Source: Actinomycetota bacterium | Lineage (GTDB): Bacteria; Actinomycetota; JAHEXW01; JAGVPG01 | Assembly (NCBI GenBank): GCA_020052375.1 | Contig: JAGVPG010000022.1 | Coordinates: forward strand, 1-59,318 | Direction of reading: 5' to 3' | DNA length: 59,318 bases | Part shown: one piece after another, positions 34,362 through 39,808 of the stretch | Layout of the letters: every line of letters begins with the position of its first letter | How positions within the stretch are numbered: the stretch's first letter is position 1 | Position numbers and translations under genes: made by a program | Notes under the pieces: generated by a model | Databases searched by the model: none | Seen by the model: only the letters and a program-made list of their open reading frames with translations | Told to the model about the DNA's origin: nothing

Positions 34362-35090
34362 ATGTCAGTCCTGGCCGGTCTAACGGTCTTGGCCTTGGCG
34401 TTGAGTATATTACCAGCGCTTATCAAAACCTATAGCAGCGATTCAAAAGACCTGCTCAAGGCCTTTACGGGCGGAGTCCTCATCTACTACATCGGATCGA
34501 CTCTGGCGGACCTTGTGAACGGAGCCAGAAATCTGATCTTCAACACAGGCCAGGGCGCGATATTCGTCGGCAATACCATTTTATTCTGTGTCGCGATCTT
34601 TACCGGCCTGATCGCCGGCCCCCTTTTCGTTATCTTCGTCCTTAAACAAAAGAATGTACCTTACCTAATGGCTATGGCTTTCGGGTTGATAAATCTAAGT
34701 TTTGCCTTCGCGCTCAACGAAGACTTGTCCAGCGGCGTGCTCGCGCTTGGCGCGGTAACGATCGTCTTGCTTGTCATCCGTTATATCCTTGAAGGCCTGG
34801 CCCTTAGTTCATCGACCTTCGACGATGAATTCGAGATAAGAGACTTCTATGTGATCCTGGCGATCGTCGCTTTACCGGCGGTCCTCGGACTGTTCTTTGC
34901 TTCACCAAGCGCCACGACGTTTGTCAATCCGTTCATCCAAAGCCTGGCGGTCGGCTTGTTTGTTTACGCATTGCCGCGATTCATATTCGATTCATCCACC
35001 GGACAAAAACAGTACAGATTCCTGTTGTTGATAGCCGGTATGAGCGTGGCCTCGATAGTCGAGATAGCCGCAGCTCTCATCGGCAGATAG
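34362..35090 (+). CDS. ZIP-like polytopic membrane protein
   Basis: A 242-residue protein with about seven membrane segments. Segment 1 followed by LLKAFTGGVLIYYIG and a later RYILEGLALSSS recall ZIP metal transporters, but the metal-binding H-N-x-P-E-G becomes R-Y-I-L-E-G, so transport of zinc is doubtful. It lies 12 bases after nifU and upstream of the redox genes. The assignment to ZIP is tentative; the function is unknown. Confidence 0.5.
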   Translation: MSVLAGLTVLALALSILPALIKTYSSDSKDLLKAFTGGVLIYYIGSTLADLVNGARNLIFNTGQGAIFVGNTILFCVAIFTGLIAGPLFVIFVLKQKNVPYLMAMAFGLINLSFAFALNEDLSSGVLALGAVTIVLLVIRYILEGLALSSSTFDDEFEIRDFYVILAIVALPAVLGLFFASPSATTFVNPFIQSLAVGLFVYALPRFIFDSSTGQKQYRFLLLIAGMSVASIVEIAAALIGR

Positions 35091-35178
35091 TATTCCCCTC
35101 CTATGCTATACTGATTTACTGGTAATTAAGTACTCTGTCCGATCGACTTATCTTTAAGTCTTTTAGGAGGGGATCGAT

Positions 35179-35427
35179 ATGTCCGCAGGTGAAACTCATC
35201 ACATCAAGATATACACTACTACGACTTGACCCTACTGCCATCAAGCCAAGGATTGGCTTACTTCCAAAAGTGTCACTTTTGAAGACGTCGATGTAGCTTC
35301 CGATAAAGAGGCTCTTAGAGAGATGGTCAATATCTCCGGCCAGATGGGCGTTCCCGTCATCGATATCGATGGAGATGTCACCGTCGGTTTCGATCGCGAT
35401 AGGTTGGCTCAACTTCTAGGGATCTAG
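35179..35427 (+). CDS. Selenocysteine-containing glutaredoxin-like protein (UGA at codon 17)
   Basis: An 82-residue thioredoxin-fold protein in one frame interrupted only by TGA 35227-35229. Reading it as selenocysteine gives the active site TTTUPYCHQAKDW in place of glutaredoxin CPYC. The cis-Pro is present in MGVPVIDIDG, as is the C-terminal GFDRDRLAQLL of glutaredoxins. AGGAGG lies 8 bases before ATG. A perfect 7-base hairpin (35243-35259) follows the UGA. The frame ends with TAG directly before the thioredoxin reductase ATG. I infer a selenoprotein that takes electrons from the reductase and may serve the class II RNR. Standard ORF callers will miss it. Confidence 0.88.
35243..35259 (+). 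promoter_or_regulatory. Candidate bacterial SECIS hairpin
   Basis: AAGCCAA, loop GGA, TTGGCTT: a 7-base perfect stem whose loop purines lie 20 bases after the UGA, within the usual range of bacterial SECIS elements read by SelB. The loop is G-rich as in known examples but shorter. It lies inside the coding sequence, as bacterial SECIS must. Confidence 0.65.
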
Positions 35428-36345
35428 ATGTACGACATCGCGATAATCGGCGCCGGCCCCGCCGGGATGACAGCCGCCATCTATGCCGCGCGAAAACAAC
35501 TCAGCGTCCTCGTCTTGACCAAAGACATCGGCGGTCAGACCCTACTCAGTTCCAGCGTCGAGAACTATCTTGGTTATAACTATATAAGCGGGGAAGAGCT
35601 GGTGAAAAAGTTCGAAGACCATCTGAACCGGTTTGATGTGGACATAAGATACGAATCCGTAACTACATTTGCTCGAGAAGGCGACGCGTTCCTGATAAAT
35701 ACGGATACGAGCAGAGAATATACAGCACACACCGTCATCATCGCATCCGGAAAGACTCCCCGAATACTCGATGTACCCGGTGAAGATACGTTCATGTCCC
35801 GCGGGATCACCTATTGCGCCATTTGTGACGCCCCTCTCTTTGCCGGAAAAGACGTAGTGGTCGTTGGTGGAGGAAACTCCGGAGCGGACGCCGTGATCCA
35901 GCTGGCGAAGATCTCCCCGAAGGTCTATCTCATCGAAGCGTCTTCTTCTTTATCTGCCGACGAAGCCCTTCAAACGAAGATATATGCGGCAGCGAATGTG
36001 GAGATTATAACAGAGACCGAGGTCATCGAGATAAAAGGATTGACACTGGTCGAATCGGTGACTGTTAAGAATAAGGTGAGCGGAAAAGTCAGAGATCTAC
36101 GCGCGGGCGGTGTCTTCATCGAGGTCGGCCTAAAACCGAATGTCTCTTTCTTACCGCAAGATATCTCGCTGAATAACCTTGATGAGATCATTGTAGACAA
36201 AGGTTGCCGGACAAACATCAAGGGAGTCTTCGCCGCCGGAGATGTCACCGATGTGCCTGAGAAACAGATAATAATAGCTGCCGGAGAAGGCGCCAAGGCT
36301 GCTTTATCCGCGTATGATCTCATAGTCGGGAAGACGGATCCTTAA
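35428..36345 (+). CDS. trxB: Thioredoxin-disulfide reductase
   Basis: A 305-residue flavoenzyme: FAD loop IIGAGPAGMTAAIYAA, redox pair in YCAICDAP (Cys133 and Cys136 or thereabouts), NADPH loop VVVVGGGNSGADA and the C-terminal GVFAAGDVTD. Its ATG follows the TAG of the selenoglutaredoxin with no gap and has no good ribosome site, so its translation may depend on ribosomes passing the UGA. The natural electron acceptor is probably the adjacent glutaredoxin-like protein. Confidence 0.93.
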   Translation: MYDIAIIGAGPAGMTAAIYAARKQLSVLVLTKDIGGQTLLSSSVENYLGYNYISGEELVKKFEDHLNRFDVDIRYESVTTFAREGDAFLINTDTSREYTAHTVIIASGKTPRILDVPGEDTFMSRGITYCAICDAPLFAGKDVVVVGGGNSGADAVIQLAKISPKVYLIEASSSLSADEALQTKIYAAANVEIITETEVIEIKGLTLVESVTVKNKVSGKVRDLRAGGVFIEVGLKPNVSFLPQDISLNNLDEIIVDKGCRTNIKGVFAAGDVTDVPEKQIIIAAGEGAKAALSAYDLIVGKTDP

Positions 36346-36357
36346 GGAGACGGGCCG

Positions 36358-38154
36358 ATGATCGATACGCTTGGTGTCAATGCTCTGCGTGTTCTAAACC
36401 GCAGATATGCATTGAAAGACGAAACGGGAAAGGTGATCGAGACGCCGGAGCAGGTCTTCCGGCGCGTCGCCAAGGCGGTCGCCTCTGCCGATCTCAAGTA
36501 CGGTACGGATGCTCAAGCTAAGGGCAGCGAACAGAAGTTTTTCGAGATGATGACGGCTCTTGAGTTCCTACCGAACAGTCCTACCTTGATGAACGCGGGT
36601 ACGGATGTCGGCCAGCTAAGCGCCTGCTTCGTACTGCCGGTCGAGGACTCGATCGTCGATATCTTTGACGCGGTAAAAAACATGGCGGTCATCCATCAGA
36701 GCGGCGGAGGTACCGGATTCAGTTTTTCAAAACTTCGGCCGGAAGGCGACATCGTCGTCTCAACAAAAGGCATAGCTTCAGGACCGGTCTCATTCATGAA
36801 CGTATTCGACACTGCGACTGAGGTCATCAAGCAGGGCGGCCGCCGGCGCGGCGCTAACATGGGGATCTTGAGATGCGACCATCCGGATATCGTCAAATTC
36901 ATCACCGCAAAGAAGAAAAACCGCGTCCTGAGGAACTTCAACCTGTCCGTTGCCGTAACCGATGTGTTTATGAAAAAGGCCGCCGAAGGCGGATCCTATG
37001 ACCTGATCAATCCGAGAACAGGGAAGACAGTTAAGAGCATGCGCGCGGCTGATGTTTTTGACCTGATCGTCCAGAGCGCCTGGGAATCAGGCGACCCCGG
37101 ACTCATATTCATTGATGAGATCAACAGGAAGAACCAGACGGCAAAGCTCGGCCCTATCGAAAGCACCAATCCGTGCGGGGAGCAGATCCTGCATCCTTAC
37201 GAATCGTGCAACCTGGGTTCTATAAATCTAAGCAAGGTCATAAACGACGGAGCTCTCGATTCCGACAAACTGCACGATCTCGTACGGGCAGGTGTTCATT
37301 TCCTGGATAATGTCATCGACGTCAATATATTCCCGGTCAGACAGACCGAAGAGATAACGCTAAAGAACAGGCGTATCGGGCTTGGGGTGATGGGCTTCGC
37401 CGACGCGTTGCTCTTGTTAGGAATACCGTACGACTCGCAGGAAGCGCTCGACTTCGCTACGCATGTCATGAAGTTCATCCGGGAAAACGCGCTTGATATG
37501 TCCCGGGAGATCGCTAAGTCGCGGGGTTCGTTCCCGAATTTCGACATCAGCTCGTGGAGGGATAACGGATATGACGCCCTGCGCAACGCGACCGTGACGA
37601 CGATCGCGCCGACAGGCACTATCAGCATCGTCGCCGGTACAACAAGCGGTATCGAACCCCTTTTCGCCATATCGTATGTGCGAGATGTCATGGAAGGTAC
37701 CCGCCTGATGGAAGCAAACCCCGTTTTTGAGGCACTAGCCAGGGAACGCGGTTTCTACAGCGAAGAACTGATGACGGAGATCGCCCGGACAGGCAGTGTC
37801 CAGGAAAACAAGAAGATCCCGGAGGATGTGCGGCGGCTGTTCGTGACAGCTATGGATATCGACCCGGAGTGGCACGTCAGGATGCAAGCCGCCTTTCAGG
37901 TATATACCGATAACGCCGTTTCAAAGACCATCAACCTGCGCCCGGAAGCTGTACCGGATGATATACGGAAATCATACCTTCTTGCATATGAATTAAGGTG
38001 CAAGGGAATAACTGTCTACCGGTATGGCAGCAAGAACGAGCAGGTACTGTACTTGAACCCGGCTTTCGATAAACAGCCGGAAAAAGACCTGGAATTCGCG
38101 ACAGCCAAACCCGAATTCAGCGGCGGCTGCCCCGTCCCGGTCTGCCCGGCATAG
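36358..38154 (+). CDS. nrdJ: Adenosylcobalamin-dependent (class II) ribonucleotide reductase
   Basis: A 598-residue enzyme that makes deoxynucleotides. Present are SPTLMNAG and GQLSACFVLPVEDS (redox Cys), the active-site stretch ESTNPCGEQ with radical Cys and Glu, SCNLGSINLSK (second redox Cys), and TIAPTGTISIVAG. No NrdB gene accompanies it, as expected for class II. The short tail ends GGCPVPVCPA, a C-x4-C pair that relays electrons from a thioredoxin or glutaredoxin; the selenoglutaredoxin two genes upstream is the obvious candidate. AAGGAG precedes the ATG by about 8 bases. Confidence 0.92.
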   Translation: MIDTLGVNALRVLNRRYALKDETGKVIETPEQVFRRVAKAVASADLKYGTDAQAKGSEQKFFEMMTALEFLPNSPTLMNAGTDVGQLSACFVLPVEDSIVDIFDAVKNMAVIHQSGGGTGFSFSKLRPEGDIVVSTKGIASGPVSFMNVFDTATEVIKQGGRRRGANMGILRCDHPDIVKFITAKKKNRVLRNFNLSVAVTDVFMKKAAEGGSYDLINPRTGKTVKSMRAADVFDLIVQSAWESGDPGLIFIDEINRKNQTAKLGPIESTNPCGEQILHPYESCNLGSINLSKVINDGALDSDKLHDLVRAGVHFLDNVIDVNIFPVRQTEEITLKNRRIGLGVMGFADALLLLGIPYDSQEALDFATHVMKFIRENALDMSREIAKSRGSFPNFDISSWRDNGYDALRNATVTTIAPTGTISIVAGTTSGIEPLFAISYVRDVMEGTRLMEANPVFEALARERGFYSEELMTEIARTGSVQENKKIPEDVRRLFVTAMDIDPEWHVRMQAAFQVYTDNAVSKTINLRPEAVPDDIRKSYLLAYELRCKGITVYRYGSKNEQVLYLNPAFDKQPEKDLEFATAKPEFSGGCPVPVCPA

Positions 38155-38190: not shown

Positions 38191-39054
38191 ATGGATAAAA
38201 CTCAATTCGACCGTTTCATCATTGCGAGCATGGCCGAGGGCATCTTGTTTGTCGATAAAGACAACAAGGTATCACTCTGCAATGAAAAAGCGGCGGAATT
38301 ACGCAGCGTCCCCGCGGAGAAGATCATCGGCAGGCGGATAGATAAATGTCACCAGCCTTCAAGCATACCCGCAGTCTTCAAAGTCATCGACAAGCTAAGA
38401 AAAGAACCGGGTTCAGTCCACACGCGCCTTGTCAATACAGACGGACGGACTTTCGAGATAAACTATACGGCTGTGTTTGGAAAAGGCGCAGACTACCTGG
38501 GAACCCTCGCTACGTCGCGTGATATAACGGAGAAGATCAAGCTCGACAAGAAACTGGCTAAGCTATCCATAACCGACGGTTTGACAGGACTTTTTAACCA
38601 CAGGTATTTCTACCAGCAACTGCAACGTGAGATGACCAGGTCAAAACGATATGGAGCTCCCTTGTCTTTGCTTCTTTTCGACCTCGATAGATTCAAACTG
38701 GTGAACGATACCAAAGGACACGCCGAAGGCGACCGCACTTTAAAGAAGATAGGAAAGCTCGTTAGGCAGAATATAAGACAGCATATCGACGAGGCGTTCC
38801 GGTACGGCGGAGACGAGTTCACGATCATCCTTCCCGAAGCGGATGAAGATAGAGCGGTCAATGCGGCGGAAAGGCTTAGAAAAGCTATTGAAAAGGCCCA
38901 ACTAGACCATATAACCTTGAGTATCGGTATCGCCACTTATACTGAAGACCTCGAACCCGTTGATTTCGTCCATATAGCGGACCAGGCGATGTACAGAGCC
39001 AAAAAGCAAGGCGGCAATCAGATCTGCCTTCATGCCGGCGAATGCAAATTATAG
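38191..39054 (+). CDS. PAS-GGDEF diguanylate cyclase
   Basis: A 287-residue cytoplasmic protein: PAS domain (about 5-120, EGILFVDKDNKVSLCNEKA) and GGDEF domain (about 125-285) with DGLTGLFNHRYF and an intact GGDEFTI. Cyclic-di-GMP synthesis is expected. There is no membrane segment. It follows nrdJ by 36 bases but appears to have its own near-leaderless promoter. Confidence 0.87.
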   Translation: MDKTQFDRFIIASMAEGILFVDKDNKVSLCNEKAAELRSVPAEKIIGRRIDKCHQPSSIPAVFKVIDKLRKEPGSVHTRLVNTDGRTFEINYTAVFGKGADYLGTLATSRDITEKIKLDKKLAKLSITDGLTGLFNHRYFYQQLQREMTRSKRYGAPLSLLLFDLDRFKLVNDTKGHAEGDRTLKKIGKLVRQNIRQHIDEAFRYGGDEFTIILPEADEDRAVNAAERLRKAIEKAQLDHITLSIGIATYTEDLEPVDFVHIADQAMYRAKKQGGNQICLHAGECKL

Positions 39055-39070
39055 ACCTCATACAAGCACA

Positions 39071-39808
39071 ATGAAGGTCTCGATAATCCACACCGACAGT
39101 GAGACTTCAAAGGAATCCGCGCCGTTTTCGACATTCCGCGACAATAGATACGCGATCAGATTTGTAAAAGTGCTCCGCGCCAATTCCGGTAAGAATATCG
39201 CGCAAGTCATCAAGACACCGGCTTCGCTCCCTTATTTCATCGATGATCCGGCGGACCATCTTCCACATGTATTCAAAGCTCACGACGTTCTGGTTTGCAT
39301 AAACATCCACGAGGAACTATTGCTACATATCCCCTTGTTAGCCAAAGAAGCCGGATGCCGGGCGATCTTGGTCCCGCGTGAAGACCATGAATGGGTCACC
39401 CCCTGGACGATGGAAAGCATCAGCCAGCAATGCACCGACCTAGGAATGGATATTGCTTTTCCGAAACCTTTCTGCGCCCTTGAAAAAGACGACTTGCATC
39501 CCGTGATCAACGTGTTCATCGACGCATTCAAGATCGGTAGACCAAAGGTGAACGTGGAGATCGCGGGAACTGTGGTTAAGCGGTTCGACGTCGAGGTAAG
39601 CGCTCCTTGCGGCGATACGTATTATGTCGCCAGGAACATGAAAGACCGGGATGTCGGCGACAAACTGGACTGGTGGACCGCCAAGTTCTGGGGCAGCTAC
39701 CCGTGCATCGGCTCGATGAAGATAGATCCGGAAACGAACGACAGCGTCCAGCACCTGGCCGGCCACATCTTGATAGAGGAAGTCTACAAGAGCCTAGAGA
39801 ACAAATAA
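39071..39808 (+). CDS. DUF166-like protein
   Basis: A 245-residue soluble protein resembling the DUF166 family, best known from methanogens. It has Cys and His in conserved-looking places: ILVPREDHEW, a DIAFPKPFCALEK stretch, EVSAPCGDTYYVARN and GSYPCIGSMKIDP near the C-terminus. No enzymatic role is established for the family as far as I know. I chose ATG 39071; the frame continues upstream to 39032 inside the GGDEF gene. Confidence 0.62.
   Translation: MKVSIIHTDSETSKESAPFSTFRDNRYAIRFVKVLRANSGKNIAQVIKTPASLPYFIDDPADHLPHVFKAHDVLVCINIHEELLLHIPLLAKEAGCRAILVPREDHEWVTPWTMESISQQCTDLGMDIAFPKPFCALEKDDLHPVINVFIDAFKIGRPKVNVEIAGTVVKRFDVEVSAPCGDTYYVARNMKDRDVGDKLDWWTAKFWGSYPCIGSMKIDPETNDSVQHLAGHILIEEVYKSLENK

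Follow-up and report, generated by a model that had tools for sequence, protein, structure and literature searches.

The 59,318-nucleotide stretch of an Actinomycetota draft genome analysed here (the window) carries on its forward strand a short glutaredoxin-like frame broken by one in-frame TGA. This locus raises the question of whether that triplet ends a damaged gene or encodes selenocysteine (Sec), and, in the latter case, which protein would supply the redoxin with electrons and which would receive them. Since the standard code terminates the gene at the UGA, annotation easily overlooks the neighbouring flavoprotein's redox partner. The features considered in this study are as follows.

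34362..35090, + strand: 242-aa hydrophobic protein without a Pfam match (from the Pfam search and relatives' loci)
35165..35172, + strand: ribosome-binding site AGGAGGGG, 6 nt 5' of the ATG (from the sequence)
35179..35427, + strand: putative selenocysteine glutaredoxin gene (YruB/Uxx-star type), 82 aa, UPYC active site (from the ORF, profile matches, and relatives)
35227..35229, + strand: UGA, codon 17, at the first Cys position of CPYC, predicted to be read as selenocysteine (from relatives and the Sec machinery)
35243..35259, + strand: bSECIS-like hairpin, 7-bp stem AAGCCAA/TTGGCTT, loop GGA from 21 nt past the UGA (from the sequence and folding)
35428..36345, + strand: AhpF-like/thioredoxin-reductase-superfamily flavoprotein, CAIC active site, the probable electron donor of the glutaredoxin (from profiles, a PDB match, and the conserved pair)
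36358..38154, + strand: adenosylcobalamin-dependent (class II) ribonucleotide reductase NrdJ, C-terminal CPVPVC, a possible client (TIGR02504, 729 bits)

The redoxin gene and its family

Re-reading of the frame gave 82 amino acids followed by TAG, with a sole in-frame TGA at codon 17, and the translation with U at that codon is MSAGETHHIKIYTTTTUPYCHQAKDWLTSKSVTFEDVDVASDKEALREMVNISGQMGVPVIDIDGDVTVGFDRDRLAQLLGI. The original prediction of a selenocysteine glutaredoxin, made from the letters alone, had placed the TGA on the first Cys of a CPYC motif, and the Cys homologues indeed carry CPYC at this codon. The ribosome-binding site and the cis-Pro loop (GVPVIDI) that it named were both found.

With Cys put at the TGA, the redoxin matched the Pfam Glutaredoxin family (PF00462) at 1.4e-18. 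With C for U, it also passed the cut-off of TIGR02196 (YruB; 92.0 bits against 88.55), and it passed that of NF041212, the Uxx-star glutaredoxin-like (seleno)protein family (70.4 bits against 66), while its profile scores stayed below the cut-offs of the named Uxx-star subfamilies 1, 2, and 3. Assignments to NrdH (TIGR02194; 48.3 bits against a cut-off of 85.75) and to the GSH-type glutaredoxin 3 (TIGR02181; 59.7 bits against 90) were rejected, and the cut-off of the mycoredoxin family was not reached in the profile search. Taken with the evidence below, we consider it highly probable that 35179-35427 encodes a glutaredoxin-fold redoxin, a cytosolic selenoprotein of the YruB/Cp9 type with Sec for the first Cys of CPYC and with the AhpF-like reductase as its probable electron donor.

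Conservation of the UGA among relatives

A search of 61 genomes revealed UGA at the same redoxin codon in both genomes of the same order (G001 and G002, 51% identity) as well as in several other families. UGA versions occur in families f18, f21, f48, f53, f63, f64, and f73, and a more distant group occurs in f12, making eight other families of the phylum; a Dehalococcoidia contig outside the phylum (L095) has the UGA too. Among the matches listed, 32 of the 397 genomes of the phylum possess a UGA version, and many others have Cys versions. The distant UGA glutaredoxins of family f12 (L184-L191) are mostly of the form QPGUPAC and share the nearly invariant hairpin GAGATGGAGTTTCTATCTC; no reductase neighbour was detected at these loci.

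Of the 397 phylum genomes, with UGA status taken from the matches listed, 30 of the 32 that have a UGA glutaredoxin possess selA, against 199 of the 365 others (Fisher p = 6.5e-6). The two UGA genomes lacking selA are both incomplete drafts, namely G002 (91% complete) and G290 (75% complete). For G002, the searches recovered the UGA gene but neither selA, selB, nor a tRNA-Sec; G001, its sister, carries selA and selB at the end of a contig.

These data bear directly on the simplest alternative, that the UGA truly ends translation or results from a miscalled Cys codon, the locus being a pseudogene or a sequencing error. UGA lies one base from a Cys codon and the assembly is a 35-contig draft, which would allow such an error. 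Against it, more than 30 genomes share this UGA, the codons after it form an intact and conserved frame, the hairpin described below is largely absent from the Cys homologues, and selA accompanies the UGA gene in 30 of the 32 genomes among the matches listed. Random codons and decayed frames at this locus in relatives would have marked a pseudogene; instead, the UGA is conserved in relatives whose frames are intact. With the UGA kept across so many genomes, the reading as a pseudogene or error was rejected, and we regard it as very improbable.

Selenocysteine machinery of the genome

The original prediction had named the absence of selB or selC as evidence against selenocysteine, and all four sel genes proved to be present in the genome. 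Contig C3 carries selD, selA, selB, and tRNA-Sec (anticodon UCA) together, so the genome should be able to read UGA as selenocysteine. The selD gene has an in-frame UGA of its own, in the N-terminal active-site stretch UAAKIGPGD, and formate dehydrogenase alpha, with UGA at its classical place (RIUHS), serves as an internal positive control. Further in-frame UGAs stand at standard selenoprotein positions in an AhpC/TSA peroxiredoxin (PADFTPVU) and in two thioredoxin-like proteins (UPRC and UGAC); for the UPRC protein the genome also encodes a Cys paralogue (CPRC).

Three of these UGA genes are clustered at G000:C26:1-2345 (L214): the peroxiredoxin, which is lipoprotein-like, the UPRC protein, a thioredoxin-like lipoprotein, and formate dehydrogenase alpha. 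The other thioredoxin-like protein, at G000:C8:37273-37542 (L219), looks exported, has its UGA in GSGUGAC, and is likely another selenoprotein.

The hairpin as a candidate SECIS element

The hairpin AAGCCAA-GGA-TTGGCTT begins 13 bases past the UGA, with the 7-base stem and the GGA loop that had been proposed. For its evaluation, synonymous recodings of the same peptide served as the reference for the folding energy of nt 9-40 past the Sec/Cys codon. The window hairpin was stronger than the recoded ones and, taken alone, was modestly unusual (p = 0.02). Mean z differed between the two groups (Mann-Whitney p = 2e-8), being -1.64 in 28 UGA genes and -0.10 in 102 Cys homologues.

In most UGA genes, the loop of the best hairpin lies 21-24 nt past the UGA and has G among its first bases (GGA, AGUU, GUU, and GGUA). 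A rule based on this pattern, a positioned hairpin with G at the loop start, was passed by 16 of the 28 UGA genes and by 2 of the 102 Cys genes. The thresholds of the rule were fixed after the hairpins had been seen and the sequences are related, so that these p-values overstate the independent evidence, but the contrast is large. Weak hairpins were predicted in the UGA relatives L167, L168, L174, and L182, and L178 has none by the rule. An Rfam scan of the window returned tRNA only, with no SECIS family at threshold. As judged from folding, the hairpin of the UGA genes behaves as a bacterial SECIS should.

The probable reductase partner

The TAG of the redoxin (35425-35427) abuts the ATG of the next gene at 35428, leaving a gap of 0 nt. 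This neighbour had been called a thioredoxin reductase; its membership of the superfamily and the abutting stop were borne out, whereas the name itself needs correction, since the protein scored 318.3 bits against the TrxR cut-off of 343.45 (TIGR01292) and its nearest PDB match was to AhpF chains (4.4e-75). Its AhpF match (TIGR03140, 307.5 bits) covers only positions 213-513 of 515, and the full-length cut-off of 502.9 was not reached. Around GGGNSG...ADxxLQxK the reductase resembles AhpF, and the HRR motif that NADPH-dependent thioredoxin reductases carry in this stretch is missing; therefore, by sequence likeness, its cofactor is probably NADH, as in the Clostridium Cp34/Cp9 system. The genome has a canonical trxA-trxB pair elsewhere, on contig C7, whose TrxB scored 373.5 bits to TIGR01292, and the redoxin-reductase pair would therefore represent a second, separate system.

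The window and nine other loci (G001, G002, four in f18, and one each in f53, f63, and f73) have a TrxR-superfamily gene 3' of the UGA redoxin. Fusion of redoxin and reductase in a single frame of at least 400 codons, with the UGA near its start, is seen in seven f21 genomes, and on a Dehalococcoidia contig a TrxR-superfamily gene is found 0.9 kb downstream of the UGA redoxin. Because the two are fused in f21 and conservedly adjacent, there is good evidence, from gene arrangement, that they work together. Recurrence over many families of one phylum, together with the fusion in one of them, makes the functional link firm, and the fused form would be a convenient single protein for the study of electron transfer through Sec.

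Based on these results, we propose that SelB and Sec-tRNA(UCA) recognise the hairpin about 20 nt downstream, so that ribosomes read the codon-17 UGA as selenocysteine and a selenolate replaces the first Cys of CPYC. Most likely, NAD(P)H (probably NADH) would supply electrons that the flavoprotein hands on through its CAIC disulphide to the redoxin's U-C selenenylsulphide. The reduced redoxin would then reduce cytosolic disulphide clients, of which NrdJ is the nearest candidate.

Possible clients of the redoxin

The original prediction went further and had the redoxin shuttle electrons from thioredoxin reductase to NrdJ, tying dNTP synthesis to selenium. The glutaredoxin, reductase, and nrdJ genes share one strand and are separated by 0 and 12 nt, which suggests one operon, and the C-terminal CPVPVC of NrdJ is the kind of tail that redoxins re-reduce; on these two grounds, NrdJ is a reasonable and plausible client. 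A Cp9-like redoxin, BC3987, can reduce a class Ib RNR (PMC3720550), and the sole AhpC/TSA peroxiredoxin found in the genome is exported-lipoprotein-like, which leaves no obvious cytosolic client of that type. On the other side, nrdJ was near the redoxin at none of 26 other UGA-glutaredoxin loci and at none of the 110 loci of a wider set save the window's own copy, so that the RNR link rests on one genome, and the trxA-trxB pair on contig C7 could itself serve NrdJ. In G001 and G002, the pair runs straight into DUF166 and DUF362 genes, which in the window lie beyond nrdJ. The shuttle to NrdJ was thus not supported outside this genome, and that reduction of NrdJ is the main job of the redoxin, with dNTP synthesis dependent on selenium, seems to us possible but doubtful. 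We hold it somewhat less likely still that, in this lineage, the Sec redoxin and its own AhpF-like reductase feed the class II RNR and make DNA precursor synthesis partly selenium-dependent. The literature search returned nothing relevant on a link between Sec glutaredoxins and RNR or on this lineage.

Another candidate role is peroxide defence of the Cp34/Cp9 type, in which electrons would pass from NADH through the AhpF-like reductase and the Sec redoxin to a peroxiredoxin. The assignment of the redoxin to YruB/Cp9 and the AhpF-like nature of the reductase speak for it, as do the Cys precedent, which has the peroxiredoxin in the same operon (PMC3720550), and the Sec peroxiredoxin encoded in the genome. 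That protein, however, has a lipoprotein-like N-terminus and is encoded beside an exported-looking Sec thioredoxin-like protein, which points to another compartment. No peroxiredoxin gene was found near 35179, and contig C26 carries the genome's only AhpC/TSA match, a protein whose exported-lipoprotein look weakens it as the natural client. In addition, only 6 of 80 loci, mostly from other phyla, have a peroxiredoxin gene no more than 1.5 kb from the redoxin, and none of the 30 loci of the phylum set does. We therefore view this role, too, as tentative, and as clients we rate NrdJ and an unseen cytosolic peroxiredoxin as about equally likely.

The arrangement across genomes indicates that the conserved unit is the putative selenoglutaredoxin with its AhpF-like reductase, not RNR. 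Upstream of the pair, the 242-aa hydrophobic protein (34362-35090) is also present in both same-order genomes, at 26-28% identity. At 38191-39808 in the window, a GGDEF/PAS protein is followed by the DUF166 protein.

Comparison with known systems

The closest described arrangement is that of YruB/Cp9 and Cp34 of Clostridium pasteurianum (TIGR02196; PMC3720550), which likewise places a small CPYC-type redoxin beside a TrxR-like flavoprotein, and in which Cp9 carries electrons between NADH-dependent TrxR and peroxiredoxin (PMC3720550). The window differs in that Sec is predicted in place of the first Cys, no peroxiredoxin is in the operon, and nrdJ comes next; in f21, moreover, the two proteins are fused. 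AhpF has the same flavoprotein module, and the f21 fusion has an N-terminal redoxin domain as AhpF has a redox domain; unlike in AhpF, the N-terminal part is replaced in the window by a separate, single Sec glutaredoxin domain. NrdH is also a redoxin encoded near an RNR, but the RNR of the window is class II and not Ib, and the motif is UPYC rather than CxQC, in line with its score below the TIGR02194 cut-off.

Sec glutaredoxins and the Uxx-star family are already known (PMC13188914; NF041212). The Uxx-star family likewise comprises glutaredoxin-like proteins whose first redox position is Sec, although the window redoxin falls outside its named subfamilies. A UxxC Sec-containing glutaredoxin (PF00462) has been cited for Clostridium (Alkaliphilus) oremlandii (PMC13188914), a selenoprotein of the UxxC form like the window redoxin. 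The same source describes glutaredoxins as GSH-linked, whereas the gene partner of the window redoxin is a flavoprotein reductase and its TIGR02181 score is far below the cut-off. The novelty of the present data is moderate and consists in the firm gene assignment, in the finding that the redoxin is paired or fused with an AhpF-like reductase in many families, and in the difference in SECIS hairpins between UGA genes and Cys homologues; the pairing of selenoglutaredoxin and AhpF-like reductase in related bacteria appears under-described.

A second SelB gene

The genome also contains a second selB at G000:C16:7670-9696 (L002 1379-3405), located beside a tRNA-Sec-like tRNA with the Cys anticodon GCA, and the same arrangement occurs in two relatives (G244:C6, L203; G333:C60, L204). 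This tRNA has U73 and an 8-bp acceptor stem, and the normal selB and UCA tRNA-Sec are present in these genomes as well. A review (PMC7609411) records the selC* tRNA-Cys/selB* type for Firmicutes, Thermodesulfobacteria, Nitrospirae, and Proteobacteria, and selB* for Syntrophobacterales and Desulfobacterales. By its sequence features, the second selB/tRNA pair observed here would fit this type.
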